Shown here piece by piece: positions 1,630 to 47,919 of a stretch of DNA of 64,000 nt. The DNA comes from Ruminococcus flavefaciens ATCC 19208 (GTDB lineage: Bacteria; Bacillota; Clostridia; Oscillospirales; Ruminococcaceae). The notes under the pieces were generated by a model. It worked only from the letters and a program-made list of their open reading frames with translations. It had not been told where the DNA came from and made no database searches. Numbering within the stretch: the first letter of the stretch is position 1; every line of letters starts with the position of its first letter. The position numbers and the translations under genes were made by a program. Location: NCBI RefSeq assembly GCF_000518765.1, contig NZ_KI912489.1, positions 66,652 through 130,651 on the forward strand, read 5' to 3'.

Positions 1630-2014
1630 AATAGTCTCCTCCGTTTTGAAGCATTTCTGCTTCTTCTTTTTTTCCTTTTCTGTATTCTCTGAAACCCGTT
1701 ATCAGCGATATAGGCATAAAAAATATGACCGCAAAGATCTCAGCAGCAGCCATGATCGAGCCATACTCCTCATTTGCTATATCCCTTGCCAGATATGCAG
1801 TCAGCAGCAAGGTAATAAATACAGCTGTGCCCGAGTACCATACATAAGGTCTTGCAAAATTATCAAATGACACCGCTATTGCGGCTGCAAGATGACACAG
1901 GAATTTAGTAATGCAGTATACCGTAAAAAATACCATCATTGGCATAAATATGAGCACTGTGGTCAGCAATGACATCAAAAACCAATAACGTACCTTTTTC
2001 CATTGCTCTTTCAT
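1619..2014 (-). CDS. Small four-helix membrane protein, unknown function
   Basis: A 131-residue protein with about four hydrophobic segments and a basic/acidic C-terminal tail (REYRKGKKEEAE). I place the start at the ATG at 2014, giving MKEQWKKVRYWF, because a GGAGGA ribosome site precedes it by about 6 bases; the reading frame stays open for 70 more codons upstream, but that stretch overlaps the next gene and reads like noise. It overlaps the DUF4153-type gene downstream by 11 bases. No family recognised. Context suggests it works with the two flanking membrane proteins. Confidence 0.7.
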   Translation of the reverse strand: MKEQWKKVRYWFLMSLLTTVLIFMPMMVFFTVYCITKFLCHLAAAIAVSFDNFARPYVWYSGTAVFITLLLTAYLARDIANEEYGSIMAAAEIFAVIFFMPISLITGFREYRKGKKEEAEMLQNGGDYYGE

Positions 2015-2028
2015 TCTGCTTCCTCCGT

Positions 2029-2322
2029 TTACGCTATGAGAAAATAGTCGATACCGTACAGCATAAGTGCCGCCAGCAATACCCTGTACACTGTCATAAC
2101 AGATCCCACTGACTTGGGGATATATTCGTCCTTGAAGTAGAGCCGCTTGAAGCCTATGGGTATGACAGCTGTCATAAGAGCTATAACGCCTGCAATATTC
2201 AGGTATTCGCTGCCCCCTGCGCACAGCACCGAGCAGATAAGAAAATCAAATACACACAAAGCCATATTTATGCCGTAGGTATATCTCAGCTCATGCACCT
2301 TTGTAACTGCTGTTTTTTTCAT
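2029..2322 (-). CDS. Small membrane protein, unknown function
   Basis: A 97-residue protein with about three hydrophobic segments. The start codon at 2322 is preceded by a good GAGGG ribosome site. It is the first gene of the leftward three-gene membrane unit (2322 to 127), ending 14 bases before the next gene's start. No known domain is recognised. A TATAAT-like hexamer lies about 30 bases upstream of the start, without a good -35 element. Confidence 0.65.
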   Translation of the reverse strand: MKKTAVTKVHELRYTYGINMALCVFDFLICSVLCAGGSEYLNIAGVIALMTAVIPIGFKRLYFKDEYIPKSVGSVMTVYRVLLAALMLYGIDYFLIA

Positions 2323-2419
2323 ACCGATCCCTCCTCAAAGACCTATTATAAATATCTGCATACTATGTTTAGAGTTTGCCCCGATGTGCGAAAATACGTT
2401 ATCCCGTATTATTTCCGCA

Positions 2420-2791
2420 TTATTTTATTGTTATCTGTATCTCGGAATGAACGTCCCTTCTGTCCCCTCTTGCCATTACCATGACATTGAGCTTTCCTGT
2501 CTTTTCGCCTACCGTAAGTGAACTTCCGTCGCTCAATATCGCAAGCTTTTCGTGTCCGCCGTCTACCCACTGAGCACCCGTTATCTCTGCTCCATTGCTG
2601 TTTTCAAATTCAGCTATATCGCTGCACTTTATCTCGGAGGACGGTGGGAATATCAGCTGTTCCTTTGCAGTTATAACAGGTGATCTCTGATAATGCGCTA
2701 TCTGAAACGCAGTATATCCTGCAACGAACAGCCCGAACACGAACATCACAGCTACGATAAGCTTTAATATCCGCCATATCGCCCTTGACAT
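2420..2791 (-). CDS. Membrane-anchored protein, unknown function
   Basis: A 123-residue protein with one N-terminal hydrophobic segment (about residues 8-30) and an extracytoplasmic remainder of beta-rich appearance ending in an alternating hydrophobic strand. I chose the ATG at 2791 (MSRAIWRILKL) because GGGGTGAGG lies just upstream; the longer frame reaches into the HTH gene. It follows the XRE-type regulator by 11 bases and is probably co-transcribed with it and with the DUF2975 gene. Family unknown. Confidence 0.6.
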   Translation of the reverse strand: MSRAIWRILKLIVAVMFVFGLFVAGYTAFQIAHYQRSPVITAKEQLIFPPSSEIKCSDIAEFENSNGAEITGAQWVDGGHEKLAILSDGSSLTVGEKTGKLNVMVMARGDRRDVHSEIQITIK

Positions 2792-2802
2792 ATCCTCACC
2801 CC

Positions 2803-3009
2803 TTATTCCCGTCTGAATTCCAGTATATCTCCCGGCTGACACTCAAGCTCCTCGCATATCTTTTCAAGGGTCGAAAAGCGTACTGCCTTTGCCTTGCCTG
2901 TTTTCAGTATGGATAGATTTGCAGTTGTTATGCCTACTCTTTCGGCAAGCTCCTGAGAGGACATCTTCCGCTTCGCCATCATTACATCAAGATTAACTAT
3001 GATCGGCAT
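2803..3009 (-). CDS. XRE/YozG-type HTH regulator
   Basis: A 68-residue Cro/CI-type helix-turn-helix protein that is almost all DNA-binding domain: the recognition core SSQELAERVGITTANLSILK is followed by FSTLEKICEELECQPGDILEF, the usual ending of this compact family. The ATG at 3009 is used because AAGGAGG sits 7-8 bases upstream; a GTG at 3018 would overlap the ribosome site. It lies 13 bases downstream of a DUF2975 membrane gene, a pairing common in Firmicutes in which the membrane protein may modulate the regulator (inference). Confidence 0.88.
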   Translation of the reverse strand: MPIIVNLDVMMAKRKMSSQELAERVGITTANLSILKTGKAKAVRFSTLEKICEELECQPGDILEFRRE

Positions 3010-3022
3010 GGAAAACACCTCC

Positions 3023-3490
3023 TTATATAGTAAAGTCGTTTTCCGACTTTATCTCTACAGCCTTTTCAAACACGTTTTTCAGCACGCGCATGATAAGCCC
3101 GAACATTATTGCCACCATTCCTACAAAGGCAAATATAGAGCTCCACAGTCCGAATATGATGCACACAACTCCCGCTGCCATACATATCCACGATATCCTT
3201 CTCAGGCAGCTTGTATTCTTCGGTATGAACACCTCGTCCCTGCTGATATTGCCGAGAAGCACGTGTAAATTCCATAATGCCGCAAGTGCAAGTGCATCGC
3301 ATACATAAAGCGATATACACATCGGTATGAACATTGTCTCTCTGTCAAGTATGCCTGCGGCTTCTACAGTCATCATGTACTGATACCAATCGGCTATTGT
3401 GGGTATGAAAAATGCCACAAATACAGCCACACCTGCTGCCGCTATCGTAAGCACTCGGGATAAAAAAAGAGATTTGTTATTATTCCACAT
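3023..3490 (-). CDS. DUF2975 family membrane protein
   Basis: A 155-residue protein with four hydrophobic segments in the DUF2975 pattern: TM1 after a short polar N-terminus, a loop containing an FIPM-like stretch, then three more helices, ending in a charged tail. The ATG at 3490 (MWNNNKSLFL) is preceded by AAGGAG at a normal distance and is preferred over an upstream GTG at 3508. A strong promoter lies at 3537-3565. It heads the DUF2975-HTH-anchored protein operon. Confidence 0.8.
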   Translation of the reverse strand: MWNNNKSLFLSRVLTIAAAGVAVFVAFFIPTIADWYQYMMTVEAAGILDRETMFIPMCISLYVCDALALAALWNLHVLLGNISRDEVFIPKNTSCLRRISWICMAAGVVCIIFGLWSSIFAFVGMVAIMFGLIMRVLKNVFEKAVEIKSENDFTI

Positions 3491-9304: not shown

Positions 9305-9331
9305 GTAGGGCGGATAATATCCGCCCCTTTT
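9305..9331 (+). terminator. GTAGGG-headed hairpin terminator
   Basis: A 7-bp stem GGGCGGA / TCCGCCC preceded by GTAG and followed by a T run, between the convergent phosphoesterase and exonuclease genes. The GTAGGG head is shared with the palindromic repeat family of this genome, so it may be a repeat unit acting as terminator. Confidence 0.7.
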
Positions 9332-15100: not shown

Positions 15101-15480
15101 GCGTTAGCTCTTAGCCGTTAGCTTGTAAGGACGCCCATTGGACGTCCCTGCCTAACAAAAGAGCTAAATGATACACTGTAGGTAACGCCGCAGCTAACAG
15201 CTGCACGTACCCTCGTCCTGCGGACATCTCCCTGCACAGCAGAGAGTCACTCGGCGTTCCGTTCGGTAGGGACGCTTTCAAAACTCACATAAACACAAAA
15301 TATCAATCATTCCACGGGCGCACGGAACTCGTCCCTACAATGTCAAATGTAGGGGACGGCGTCCTCGACGTCCCACAAGATATAATTTATTATCGCGGAC
15401 GACCAATGGTCGTCCCTACATTTTCAATTCTCCATTCTCAATTAGCGGACAAGCAAAGGGTGCGCAGGCTATGCGTAAAA
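15101..15480. repeat. Mosaic of palindromic intergenic repeat modules
   Basis: No gene. The stretch holds several short palindromes with GGACG/CGTCC arms and GTAGGG or CCCTAC ends (for example around 15149-15165, 15349-15378 and 15396-15420), plus an inverted fragment near 15453-15475 related to the GCGCAGAGCCTGCGC / CCTTGCTCG module of the repeats at 45771 and 47561. It appears to be an accumulation of decayed repeat units. Confidence 0.65.
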
Positions 15481-30972: not shown

Positions 30973-32117
30973 TAGTCACATATGCTGACATCGACGGTTT
31001 CAAAAATCTGAAAGATATTTCATTTGCACCCGATCCGAAATATAATATCATCGTCGGACCGAATGCACAGGGAAAGACCAATCTTCTTGAAGCGATGTGG
31101 ATACTTTCTGGCTGTAAGAGCTTCCGCGGCTCAAAGGAAAAGGACTATATCTGCCTTGGCGGAGAACGTATGCAGTCAAAGATAAAAATTCTTGACAGCG
31201 TCCGCGAACAGAAAATATCCTTTGAGATGACCAGAAGTACGGCAAATCCCAAGAATATCACACTTAACGGAGTAAAACAGAAGGGTACGAGAGCACTTTT
31301 CGATGTTTTCAAGTGTATCGCTTTCATTCCCGATGATACGGATATTGTAAAGGGTTCACCCGAGAAAAGGCGTAATTTTGTGGATATGGCTGCTTCGCAG
31401 CTCAATCCCGTGTTCGTCATGCATATAAACAAGAACAACGCTATAATGAATCAGCGAAATGCTCTGCTGAAAGGCATAATGCAGGGAAATACCGACCGCG
31501 GTATCCTTGAGATATGGGACAGACAGGCTTCACGTGAGGGAGCTGTAATATCCTATATGCGCAGTGAGTATATAAAAAAGTTCAATGAGATATGCGGCAG
31601 ACTTTACCGCACTATTTCGGGCGGCAGTGAGGAACTTGAGCTGGAATACAAGTCAAATGTTTTCAGATCCGAGGACTTTGAAAAGCCCTGCGGCGAGGAA
31701 GCATACGAGCAGTATTACAGAAAGCTTGCCGAAACAGCAGATTACGATATCAGAACGGGAAGCACCCATGCAGGTGTTAACCGCGATGAGATAATAATAA
31801 AAATAAACGGCGTGAGCGCGAAGGATTACGGCTCACAGGGACAGATAAAGAGTGCGGCTCTTGTTATGAAGCTTGCACAGGCAGAGATATTCATGCAGAA
31901 GTCAAAGGACGCTCCTGTGATATTCCTTGACGATGTTATGGGCGAGCTTGACGAAAGCCGTCAGAGGTTCGTGTTTGAGATAATCAGGGATATGCAGGTA
32001 TTTATCACGACTCCGAATGAAAGTGCGCTTCTTCCCGAGATAAAGGGAAAGGTCCTGCATATAAGCGGCGGCAGCGTATCAGAGGTGGAAGAAAATGTAT
32101 CTGCACATAGGGAATAA
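30969..32117 (+). CDS. recF: DNA repair protein RecF
   Basis: A 382-residue SMC-like ATPase that helps load RecA at gaps. Walker [15 protein letters not shown] at about 31-44, and signature/Walker [17 protein letters not shown] and [18 protein letters not shown] start overlapping rlbA. The end overlaps remB by 23 bases. Confidence 0.97.
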
Positions 32118-32355
32118 TTACTCTGTTGATGTAAGAGATATAGTGGGAGTTTTCGACATTGAGAATACAACTGTTGAAAAGTGTACCAAGAAGCTGCTTG
32201 AACGGGCAGAAAAGGAAAAGCACTGTATCTACACCACATACGAAATGCCGAAAAGCTTCATAGTTACAGTAAAAAACGGCATAGAAAAGGTCTATATATC
32301 ACAGCTTTCCGCAGCAACTTTGAGAAAACGCCTCAAAGAGGGCGGCGGCTTCTGA
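32095..32355 (+). CDS. remB: DUF370 regulator RemB
   Basis: An 86-residue DUF370/RemB family protein beginning [21 protein letters not shown], always found between recF and gyrB in Firmicutes. The Bacillus homologue has been linked to matrix gene control. Starts inside recF and ends one base before the start of the transposase-like gene. Confidence 0.92.
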   Translation: MYLHIGNNYSVDVRDIVGVFDIENTTVEKCTKKLLERAEKEKHCIYTTYEMPKSFIVTVKNGIEKVYISQLSAATLRKRLKEGGGF

Positions 32356-32356
32356 A

Positions 32357-32920
32357 ATGGAAAGACCTGACAGAAAACTGAACAGACTTGAAAATTACGA
32401 TTATTCACGTAACGGTCTGTATTTCATAACCATATGCACAAAAGACAGGGTACCGTATTTGTCGGAGATTACCTCTGTAGGGAACGCCGCCCTCGGCGTT
32501 CCGCAAAATGCAACATCGGAAAACGTTATATTTGACGTTCCGTACGTAAAACTGACCGAATACGGTAAAATCGTAAATACAAATATCAAAAAAATAAATG
32601 AAATATATAAATATGTTTCTGTTACAAAATACGTTATTATGCCCGATCATATCCATATGATATTATTTGTTTCGGATTTTGGTGATAAACCGTTGAAAAA
32701 CGGAACGCCGGGGGCGGCGTTCCATACAAAATCCGTTTCACAAATAATAAACGGATTGAAATCAATTTCAACAAAACAAATCGGTTTTTCGATATAGCAA
32801 AAATCATTCCACGACCACATAATCCGCAATGAAAAGGAATTCCTTGAAATTTGCGATTACATTGACAATAATCCCATAAACTGGGTAAATGACATATACA
32901 ACCAAAATTATTGGAGGTAA
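32357..32920 (+). pseudogene. REP-associated tyrosine transposase (RAYT), nonsense-interrupted
   Basis: A Y1/HUH transposase of the IS200-like RAYT group. N-terminal LENYDYSRNGLYFITICTKD and the HUH motif MPDHIHMI (H98, H100) are intact. A TAG at 32795 stops the frame after 146 residues, yet the same frame continues as QKSFHDHIIRNEKEFLEIC and DYIDNNPINWVNDIYNQNYW to TAA at 32918. Relatives read W-Q-K/R-S at this point, so TAG most likely replaces a TGG Trp codon. Two near-perfect 22-base palindromes are embedded in frame (32481-32502 and 32702-32723), encoding VGNAALGVP and NGTPGAAFH. The gene fits exactly between remB (one base gap) and gyrB, and its last codons (TGG AGG TAA) supply the gyrB ribosome site. 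I cannot place the catalytic tyrosine confidently. Confidence 0.88.
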
Positions 32921-32923
32921 ATC

Positions 32924-34855
32924 ATGAGTCAGCAGAACAACAACTACGATGAAAACGACATACAAGTCCTTGAAGGACTTGAAGCGGTCCGCAAAAGACC
33001 GGGTATGTACATCGGTTCGACAGGTCCCGGAGGACTCCACCACCTCGTTTACGAGATCGTGGACAACTCCATCGACGAAGCTCTTGCAGGCTACTGTACA
33101 GAGATAACTGTCGAGATACTTGAAGGAGATGTTATCCGCGTTTCAGATAACGGCCGTGGTATACCTGTAGGTATCCACCCGAAGGAGGGCATATCCGCAG
33201 CTACCGTTGTTTATACCATTCTCCACGCAGGCGGTAAGTTCGGCGGCGGCGGATATAAGGTGTCAGGCGGTCTCCACGGTGTCGGAGCTTCTGTAGTTAA
33301 CGCTCTTTCATCATGGCTGGAGCTTACCGTAAAGGACGGCGAGCACGTTTACTTCCAGCGTTTCGAGCGCGGTCACTATGATGAACAGCTGAAGATCATC
33401 GGCGATACCACAGAAACAGGTACTTCCGTTATGTTCAAGGCTGATGACGAGATATTCGAGACTACTGTCTACAGCTATGAGATACTTCTCAGAAGGCTTC
33501 GTGAACAGGCTTTCCTCAACGCAGGAATCAAGATAATATTCTCCGATAAGCGCGACAAGGAAAATATCCTCGGCGAGACTCTCCACTATGAGGGCGGTAT
33601 CCGCCAGTTCGTAGAGCATATCCACAAGACCCGCGAGCTTGAAGCTATCAGCGGCGATGTTATTTACATTTCAGGTACTCAGGGTGACTCATTCGCTGAG
33701 ATAGCTCTCCAGTACAACGACAGCTACAATGAAGTAATACTTTCATTTGCAAACAATATCCATACCAAGGACGGCGGTTCTCACGAAACAGGCTTCAAGA
33801 ACGCACTTACCAAGGTAATAAACGATTACGGAATGAAAATGGGCAAGATAAAGGACGCCAAGGACAAGCTGAAAGGCGAAGATGTCCGCGAAGGTCTTAC
33901 AGCCATAATCTCCGTAAAGCTTACCGAGTGCGAATTTGAGGGACAGACAAAGGGACGTCTCGGAAATCCCGAAGTGCGCCCGTTTATCGAGAAAATGGTG
34001 CAGGAAAAGCTCATGAATTTCCTTGAGGAAAATCCCGAGACTGCAAACCTTATCTTCGAGAAAAGCCTGTCTGCACTTAAAGCCCGTGAGGCTGCAAAGC
34101 GAGCAAGAGAGGCAGAGCGTAAGAAGAACGCTTTCGGAAACGCTTCAATGCCCGAAAAGCTTGCAGACTGCTCCGAGCGTGACGCAAGATACACCGAAAT
34201 ATACATCGTCGAGGGAGATTCTGCGGGCGGCTCTGCAAAGCAGGGACGTGACAGACGTTTTCAGGCTATCCTTGCACTATGGGGCAAGATGCTCAACGTT
34301 GAAAAGGCTCGTATCGACAAGATTTACGGCAATGACAAGCTTGAGCCTGTTGTTACTGCACTCGGTACAGGCATAGGCGAGGATTTCGATATAGAAAAGC
34401 TCCGCTATGGTAAAGTCATCATCATGGCCGATGCCGATGTTGACGGTATGCATATCAGAACACTTCTGCTCACATTCTTCTTTCGTTATATGAGACCGCT
34501 CATCACCAACGGAAACGTTTATATAGCACAGCCGCCTCTTTTCAGAGTTGAGCGCAAGAAGAAGGTATACTACGCATTCTCCGACGAGGAGCGTGACAAG
34601 TATATCTCAGAGCTTTCCGAGGACGGAAAGTACAAGGACGTTGAAGTTCAGCGTTACAAAGGTCTTGGTGAGATGGATCCCGAACAGCTGTGGGAGACCA
34701 CTATGGACCCTGAGCACCGTACTATCGTAAGGATAGGCATGGAGGACGCTTTAAAGGCTGACGAGACATTCAGCATACTCATGGGCGACAAGGTAGAGCC
34801 AAGACGTAATTTCATCGAAAAGAACGCTAAGTTCGCACAGGATCTTGATATATGA
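32924..34855 (+). CDS. gyrB: DNA gyrase subunit B
   Basis: A 643-residue GHKL ATPase subunit of gyrase. ATP site: [27 protein letters not shown] and [36 protein letters not shown] and [16 protein letters not shown]; tail [18 protein letters not shown]. The ribosome site GGAGG overlaps the end of the RAYT pseudogene. Followed by a small membrane gene, then gyrA. Confidence 0.98.
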
Positions 34856-45770: not shown

Positions 45771-46063
45771 GTAGGGGCGCTTTCCGAGCGCCCGCTTATG
45801 TCATTTTACAAAAATATAACGTTTCAATGCAATTGTGTAGGGGCTTGCCTGTGGCAGACAGTTAGATTCCGATGGTATTATTACGGGCTGATGTGGGCAT
45901 CAGTCTCTACAGCACGTTTACTTTATTTGTATCATTTTTTCGGGCGAGCGGAACTCGCCCTTACAGCGCAGAGCCTGCGCCCCCTTGCTCGTGCGGATAT
46001 CATCAAAAGAGCAGTTGCTTCTCGACACGGGGAATAACATCGTAAACGACAATAATTATGAAT
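45771..46063. repeat. Composite palindromic repeat, copy 1
   Basis: A 293-base non-coding unit close to identical in order and sequence (roughly 90 percent by eye) to 47629-47919, in the same orientation. It is a string of hairpins: GGGCGCT/GAGCGCCC headed by GTAG (45771), a unit headed by GTAGGGG (45837), GGGCTGATG/CATCAG, GGGCGAG/CTCGCCC and GCGCAG/CTGCGC, ending at AATAATTATGAAT. No open frame in it looks coding. Confidence 0.88.
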
Positions 46064-47560: not shown

Positions 47561-47919
47561 CGTGACGCTGCACCCTTGCTCGGGCGGATATCGTAAAAAG
47601 GGCAATTGCATCTCGACACGGGAAGTTTGTAGGGGCGCTTTCTGAGCGCCCGCTTAAGCCATTATACAAAAATATAACGTATCAATGCAACTGTGTAGGG
47701 GCTGCCTGTGGCGGCCCGTAGATTCCGATGATATTATCACGGGCTGATGTGGGCATCAGCCCCTACAGCGCGTTTACTTTGTTTGTATCATTTTTTCGGG
47801 CGAGCGGAACTCGCCACTACAGCACAGAGCCTGCGCCCCCTTGCTCGTCCGAATATCATCAAAAGGGGCATTGCATCTCGACACGGGGAATATCATCGTA
47901 AACGACAATAATTATGAAT
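47561..47919. repeat. Composite palindromic repeat, copy 2 with extra module
   Basis: From 47629 to 47919 it matches copy 1 (45771-46063) with small changes. It has an additional 68-base module at 47561-47628 (palindrome GCAGCGTGACGCTGC, CACCCTTGCTCG, GGATATCGT, AAGGGCAATTGCATCTCGAC) that recurs in modified form at the right end of both copies and, inverted, at 10170-10233. Its last bases reach the gpr stop codon. Confidence 0.88.

Follow-up and report, generated by a model that had tools for sequence, protein, structure and literature searches.

A broken RAYT allele with an inverted in-gene REP pair between remB and gyrB of Ruminococcus flavefaciens, and its apparent exchange among relatives

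Introduction

Published work presents RAYTs (TnpA_REP) as domesticated genes that occur in single copy and pass down vertically; their active transfer was held to be very unlikely, whereas passive transfer through homologous recombination was allowed for, though as a probably rare event (PMC8049555). Other TnpA_REP proteins recognise a GTAG foot together with a stem-loop (PMC8266576), and the presence of REPs inside RAYT genes as such was reported by Quentin et al. 2018 (PMC6006769). By what route a RAYT in a conserved position comes to have another REP class is a question left open in PMC3686654.

Here we describe a RAYT gene of Ruminococcus flavefaciens ATCC 19208 that lies in a stretch of 64,000 nucleotides (contig NZ_KI912489.1, positions 66,652 to 130,651; hereafter the window), and compare it with its relatives. 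The original prediction for this DNA was right in reading a RAYT with a nonsense codon, and missed both a pair of REPs inside the gene and the exchange of alleles at the locus.

Results

A RAYT gene with one nonsense codon

The gene fills the space between remB and gyrB (Table 1). It starts one base after the remB stop codon (32353-32355) and ends in TGG AGG TAA, three bases ahead of the gyrB ATG. Alignment to a RAYT profile had been proposed as a check, and the protein, read with an X at the stop, matched NCBIfam NF047646 (REP_Tyr_transpos) with an E value of 1.2e-16 at 60.9 bits, which is under the curated cut-off of 80 that was exceeded in just 1 of 14 control genomes. The family match is far above chance, that of the nearest relative reaching an E value of 1.6e-115, and Pfam gave no family at 1e-3 for the window protein. 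An AlphaFold2 model of the intact orthologue L098, rather than of the window copy (mean pLDDT 79), had as its best solved structure 4er8, the E. coli TnpA_REP with a REP hairpin (E 5.4e-7), followed by IS200/IS605-type transposases. The identification of a RAYT between remB and gyrB is supported.

Table 1. Features of the remB-gyrB region, in window positions
Feature	Position	Strand	Basis
remB (extracellular matrix regulator RemB), gene 5' of RAYT	32095..32355	+	NF046065 61.8 bits, cut-off 40
RAYT (TnpA_REP) open frame, one TAG break	32357..32920	+	NF047646 match; 4er8 best structure for the model of intact orthologue L098
Exchangeable allele stretch (RAYT body and both REPs)	32357..32820	+	limits from relatives, approximate in window
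REP 1: foot GTAG 32477-32480, hairpin 32481-32502 (type T1), in-frame peptide VGNAALGVP	32477..32502	+	fold -12.1 kcal/mol as ssDNA, z -4.8
HUH motif codons (DHIH), between the two REPs	32645..32656	+	translation, alignment of relatives
REP 2, inverted: hairpin 32702-32723, foot 32724-32727 altered to GTAT	32702..32727	-	ssDNA fold z -6.2
TAG nonsense codon replacing conserved Trp, WQKS motif	32795..32797	+	relatives TGG / W
Last 112 nt before gyrB, following local backbone; holds Tyr motif and gyrB Shine-Dalgarno	32812..32923	+	comparison of relatives
Catalytic Tyr motif codons YIDNNP, 3' of TAG	32858..32875	+	Y168 invariant, 71 proteins
gyrB, fixed 3' neighbour	32924..34855	+	ORF list, relatives' loci

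The read-through frame has the HUH motif and the single tyrosine with a Y---NP signature (DHIH and YIDNNP), the genome has a dispersed family of GTAG-tagged REPs, and the L098 model has the fold. Residues H98, H100, Y168 and N172 are invariant among 71 relatives (alignment A1, 71 of 97 open RAYTs), in which the residue before the HUH motif is D in 36 and N in 35. REPs flanking the gene from outside were not found: there is no tagged REP outside the gene within about 12.8 kb, the nearest in the window being at 15349-15419 and 45771. Assignment to the IS200/IS605 TnpA group was rejected, the gene reading YIDNNP instead of Y---Q and a protein search of the genome giving no close further copy of the body or its HUH-coding spacer. 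Two further NF047646 matches in the genome are IS200-type genes, reading YIKNQ and YIRKQ.

The TAG is residue 147 of the RAYT frame, which is open again from there to its end. At this position six of six relatives (L041, L042, L107, L097, L100 and L104) have TGG, and the intact proteins of alignment A1 have W in 63 of 71 and F in the other 8, so that the nonsense codon does stand at a conserved tryptophan and one G-to-A change, as originally proposed, is the simplest description of it. The loss looks recent, since the frame stays open after the TAG and the RAYT of the nearest relative, L097/L218, is intact. Because the TAG precedes YIDNNP, the truncated product lacks the catalytic Tyr motif and, from what is known of the family, should be inactive as a nuclease. 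Ten of 12 RAYT pairs had a dN/dS of 0.11-0.20, a sign of purifying selection from which intact alleles would be expected to do something selected; one pair, L040/L102, had 0.75, resting on very few changes. An intact gene in which faulty sequencing or assembly produced the TAG is very improbable: one base of a draft assembly of 25 contigs decides the matter, but the dN/dS between the window and L097, 0.33, fits relaxed constraint, without being proof of it. The searches found one other RAYT in the genome (C1:143432-143985; L036 about 1001-1575), which is split over two frames by a frameshift near its start. With both of the RAYTs found being broken, REP copying has presumably stopped in this genome.

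Expression of gyrB and the fate of RAYTs at the locus

The original prediction had the end of the RAYT double as the gyrB Shine-Dalgarno, and suppression or re-initiation at the TAG feed gyrB expression. The last codons do overlap the motif (GGAGG, 32913-32917), but the motif is independent of the RAYT: GGAGGT precedes gyrB in 21 of 22 loci without a RAYT match, including gaps of 29-34 nt (L061, L177, L057), and a Shine-Dalgarno-like motif occurs within the last 20 nt before gyrB in all 57 remB-gyrB loci. Read-through that keeps the enzyme active, or termination that tunes gyrB via re-initiation, might be read into the open frame after the TAG and the rarity of TAG as a stop (2 of 46 window open frames of at least 200 codons), but it found no support and is extremely unlikely in our estimation: three other full-length copies at the locus carry other lesions, four loci hold remnants, gyrB has its motif at all 57 loci, and the second RAYT of the genome is broken too. 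There are no tRNA genes within the 64-kb window, and the search for a gyrB promoter inside the RAYT gave no signal, positions 32000-33000 holding four promoter-like matches where 3.0 were expected. Among eight remB regions from other genera, gyrB was found in seven, with varied upstream sequence and unsure gyrB starts.

The comparison of the remB-gyrB gap in relatives that had been proposed covered 57 distinct loci: 27 with an intact RAYT, 4 with a full-length broken copy, 4 with a remnant and 22 with no match. The full-length broken copies are those of the window, L192, L195 (frameshifted, its longest frame ending at gyrB 98 codons long) and L229. Among the 22 loci without a match, L093 keeps a RAYT remnant and L178 (genome G009) a vestige of the RAYT end, as L048 perhaps does too, so not all of them are free of RAYT history. 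RAYT alleles decay in place through stops, frameshifts and deletions, the TAG of the window being one such case. Genus-wide, 57 of 125 genomes had a RAYT match.

Two side observations concern RAYTs elsewhere. Metagenome-assembled genomes labelled Betaproteobacteria, Burkholderiales, Desulfuromonadales, Synergistaceae, Spirochaetes and Chitinispirillales (L134, L139, L148, L150, L158, L172) also have RAYTs of the present type, which suggests either transfer across phyla or binning errors. A RAYT match on one contig of genome G094 (C107:5861-6400) lies within an open frame of 841 residues, possibly a fusion.

An inverted REP pair inside the gene

The window gene contains two 22-nt palindromes that form an inverted pair on either side of the HUH codons, with arms of 28 nt that are 93% complementary. 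In the 3.59-Mb genome the T1 palindrome occurs at 33 sites, of which two are those inside the gene, and a reversed-pattern control gave 0; 29 of the sites have a 4-nt loop and a GTAG directly 5'. Dispersed sites, hairpin fold and GTAG foot together identify the palindromes as REPs of the RAYT kind. The foot of REP 2 is GTAT in the window, GTAA in the intact L097 and GTAG in most other relatives; since GTAG is lost in an intact gene as well, this is no evidence of decay in the window. The second RAYT of the genome carries a different in-gene pair (GTAGGGGCGCACA type) at matching places. The genome has many REP types that share one GTAGGG foot, and in the window other GTAG-tagged hairpins with different stems, some of them clustered, lie at 9305-9325, 15349-15374, 15397-15419, 45771-45793 and 47629-47766.

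In-gene pairs were sought in 111 distinct stretches of RAYT sequence, none shorter than 380 nt; one of the searches that supplied them kept 80 of 249 relatives, and the sample represents RAYTs near to the query P0001. A long inverted pair with arms of at least 14 nt occurred in 100 of the 111, at least one of which (L153) is not a REP; pair and HUH codons could both be located in 99 relatives, and in 95 of these the codons lie between the arms. A more stringent hairpin search gave 82 of the 111 with a single foot-tagged hairpin on either side of the HUH motif. The two hairpins are inverted with feet outward in 80 of these genes and direct in L131 and L154. At site 1 the hairpin keeps one reading frame in 79 of the 82 genes, and at site 2 it does so in 76 of the 80 with an inverted pair. 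Half-stems at site 1 fall into 32 types. The first nine stem bases are identical at both sites in 68 of the 82 genes, whereas 2000 shuffles between genes gave a mean of 4.6 and a maximum of 12. A RAYT tree of 71 rows, made with the REP columns left out, has 29 stem changes at site 1 and 31 at site 2 among the 58 labelled genes, yet 51 of these 58 genes have the same stem at both sites. The in-gene pair therefore appears to be ancient and stable in position, its two stems changing in concert.

The stem matching between the sites is essentially restricted to the REP unit and falls off at its edge. Template switching as its source is not favoured, the outer flank having at most a slight excess of matches (0.40 against 0.31, sd 0.05, at position 3). 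Unequal in-gene stems were seen in L201, L166, L167, L151, L123 and L138; these RAYTs and those with direct-orientation REPs (L131, L154) could possibly be intermediates of stem change.

In-gene REPs could instead be independent insertions that are tolerated in loops and have no role, which is how Quentin et al. 2018 read them (PMC6006769). The low-confidence loops of the model at residues 43-58 and 111-120 would fit it, as would the intragenic REPs that occur in unrelated genes (PMC3733652) and L162, which is without a REP trace at site 2. Against this stand the positions, frame and inverted orientation, which are constant across the sample, and the stems, which are matched within each gene; candidates for empty sites are few, and even the hairpin-less L162 still reads VARDFVRP at site 1. 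We therefore regard tolerated insertion as a possible but rather unlikely account of the pair. By their sequence, the intact alleles between remB and gyrB are HUH/Tyr enzymes whose genes carry a single kind of REP hairpin twice, in frame and inverted, with the HUH codons enclosed and both feet pointing away from them.

RAYT body and REP type behave as one exchangeable allele

At the gyrB locus the in-gene REPs fall into four types, T1-T4. In 465 pairs from 31 loci, bodies of the same type are 67-100% identical (the allele label being derived from the RAYT gene itself), and bodies of different type are 53-76% identical at any gyrB identity, up to 98%. This set largely contains that of a 23-locus comparison and is not independent of it. 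Across the pairs, identity in gyrB correlates with identity in the body at r 0.38, in the last 112 nt at r 0.80 and in remB at r 0.80. Masking the REPs leaves the body pattern unchanged, different types still being 60-72% identical at a gyrB identity of at least 95%. For 22 loci, among which the type labels of L046 and L097 were set by hand since an altered foot hid one hairpin, the REP type changes 3 times on the RAYT tree and 11 times on the gyrB tree; on the latter (375 columns, with 3 of 19 inner branches starred), monophyly is rejected for T2 (five genomes, p-AU 0.0006) and not rejected for T3 (0.31) or T4 (0.09).

Single pairs of genomes illustrate the pattern. The window and R. flavefaciens Y1 (L107, type T2) are 96% identical in gyrB, 90% in remB and 98% in the tail, and 67% in the body; for L041 and L042 the values are gyrB 98%, remB 97%, tail 99% and body 63%. 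In L042 (genome G047) the backbone is that of L041 (T1), and the T2 body is identical to that of L230 (genome G151), the two genomes differing elsewhere (remB 88%, gyrB 92%, tail 85%). Both copies are open frames. In a three-way comparison, 160 consecutive columns, gaps included, are donor-like; counted from the gyrB start, they span -519 to -116. The 5' crossover lies between -552 and -519, at the remB end and the start codon, and the 3' crossover between -116 and -103, in the HDHII codons; from -103 to +299 all 36 of 36 informative columns are backbone-like, and upstream of -552 they are mixed, 30 backbone-like against 8 donor-like. The pairs L097/L107 and L100/L104 show a similar pattern and similar 3' limits, the 5' limit of L097/L107 extending into remB. 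These pairs were picked for close gyrB, which would miss longer replacements that take gyrB along, so the tight breakpoints are partly a selection effect and no proof of a site-specific mechanism.

At least one allele has thus evidently passed from one species to another in a cassette 404-449 nt long, the recipient keeping its own last 35 codons and gyrB. Another account, put forward for Pseudomonas and Stenotrophomonas (PMC3686654), is a switch by mutation: the RAYT would descend vertically, and mutations arising in place would turn its REPs from one class into the next. The RAYT does occupy the same locus in 31 full-length cases, and the unequal stems in 14 of 82 in-gene pairs suggest that REPs also change in place over longer times. 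Yet at the gyrB locus a change of REP type goes with a change of the whole body, even when the REPs are masked, and the identical body in genomes with remB at 88% and gyrB at 92% refutes mutation as the sole cause for L042. We consider mutation in place improbable as the explanation here; the RAYT body together with its REP type behaves at this locus as an allele that moves between species.

Dispersed REPs mostly match the resident allele

We counted T1-T4 REPs in 25 genomes, the window's own and 24 relatives chosen by RAYT presence or absence and by completeness. The 6 genomes without a RAYT match have zero such REPs (one of them, G009, keeps a RAYT trace before gyrB), and all 19 genomes with a RAYT match the combined T1/T2/T4 pattern. 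With the gene's own pair removed, the resident type is the commonest of the four in 11 of 15 typed genomes (shuffled mean 4.1, p 0.0001), the exceptions being G045, G037, G044 and G007. Genome G012 has 41 T4 REPs and a resident T3 allele. No T4 RAYT was found in it that could explain these REPs, its other two RAYTs carrying other stems. The dispersed REPs of these genomes evidently match the resident allele above chance, in company with layers of other types, as expected if earlier alleles left REPs behind.

Two details may be recorded here. In the window's genome an array of T1, T3 and T2 REPs with shared flanks occurs in four places (C4:217-298, C4:45713-45794, C4:283316-283398 and C9:16003-16084; L022, L024, L027, L033); two copies are near C4 contig ends, and the T3 of one copy has an extra G. 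The array perhaps belongs to a larger repeated element. In L037 the open frame at 1638-3266, presumably of an ATP synthase beta-like gene, runs on at its 5' end through REP sequence, so that an automatic start call could be wrong there.

Discussion

The explanation that best covers these results, and one we hold to be probable, is that the window carries a broken RAYT allele at a fixed site between remB and gyrB, which is occupied in part of the genus Ruminococcus by alleles that are exchangeable together with their REPs. An allele would arrive, most likely, by ordinary homologous recombination via the conserved flanks, replacing the resident body. By analogy with other TnpA_REP proteins, its enzyme may cut and copy those REPs whose stem matches its own in-gene pair, and this pair would make enzyme and substrate travel together. 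The REP type of the new allele could then spread through the genome, seeded by the in-gene REPs, before the allele decays, the stage that the window would represent.

This leads us to suggest, tentatively and as something that may well prove otherwise, that the in-gene pair is a built-in seed. Recombination that brings in a new body would also bring two REPs to found a new dispersed population, and the locus would cycle through invasion, REP spread, decay (the TAG of the window) and replacement by a foreign allele. The cycle of homing endonuclease genes resembles this one.

For one group, the locus gives a direct answer to how a syntenic RAYT changes its REP class: body and REP type appear to have been exchanged together by recombination, with the crossovers mapped. 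T1-T4 are natural enzyme and substrate sets in nearly identical backgrounds, by which REP specificity and the turnover of REP populations become testable. A caution also follows: in this group, the DNA immediately 5' of gyrB combines two histories. Neither the exchange of RAYT alleles nor matched in-gene pairs came up in the literature searches, and within their scope an exchange of enzyme plus REP type as one cassette at a fixed locus appears to be new. REPs inside the gene are a feature of known kind, and the pair described here is more regular in structure than in the literature covered.

The window gene is a broken TnpA_REP allele that seems to come closest to subclass 2.4, or Bertels group 4. 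It shares with the subclass, as Quentin et al. 2018 describe it (PMC6006769), HUH and Y motifs, a variable stretch between HUH and Y, and in-frame in-gene REPs. The motifs of the subclass are NH[IFV]H, WQ and YIxNNP, where the window copy reads DHIH, TAG-Q and YIDNNP. The present genes differ from the subclass in that two sites flanking the HUH motif hold a matched inverted pair. REPINs likewise consist of two inverted REPs a few hundred bases or less apart, but here the spacer is RAYT coding sequence, of which the protein search found no further copy in the genome. In E. coli the REPs lie outside the TnpA_REP gene. The E. coli protein (4er8) has the same fold at 19% identity over the match of the L098 model, and its REPs have a bulged stem (PMC8266576). 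Closest in behaviour are the orthogroups of Pseudomonas and Stenotrophomonas (Nunvar et al. 2013, PMC3686654), for which the authors likewise describe syntenic RAYTs with differing REP classes in related strains, dispersed REPs of older classes, and RAYTs with nonsense and frameshift mutations, and name horizontal transfer as a possible source of diversity. The switch was there inferred as mutation of the flanking REPs, whereas at the remB-gyrB locus the body and its in-gene REPs are replaced together, evidently by recombination, with the donor-like tract mapped.
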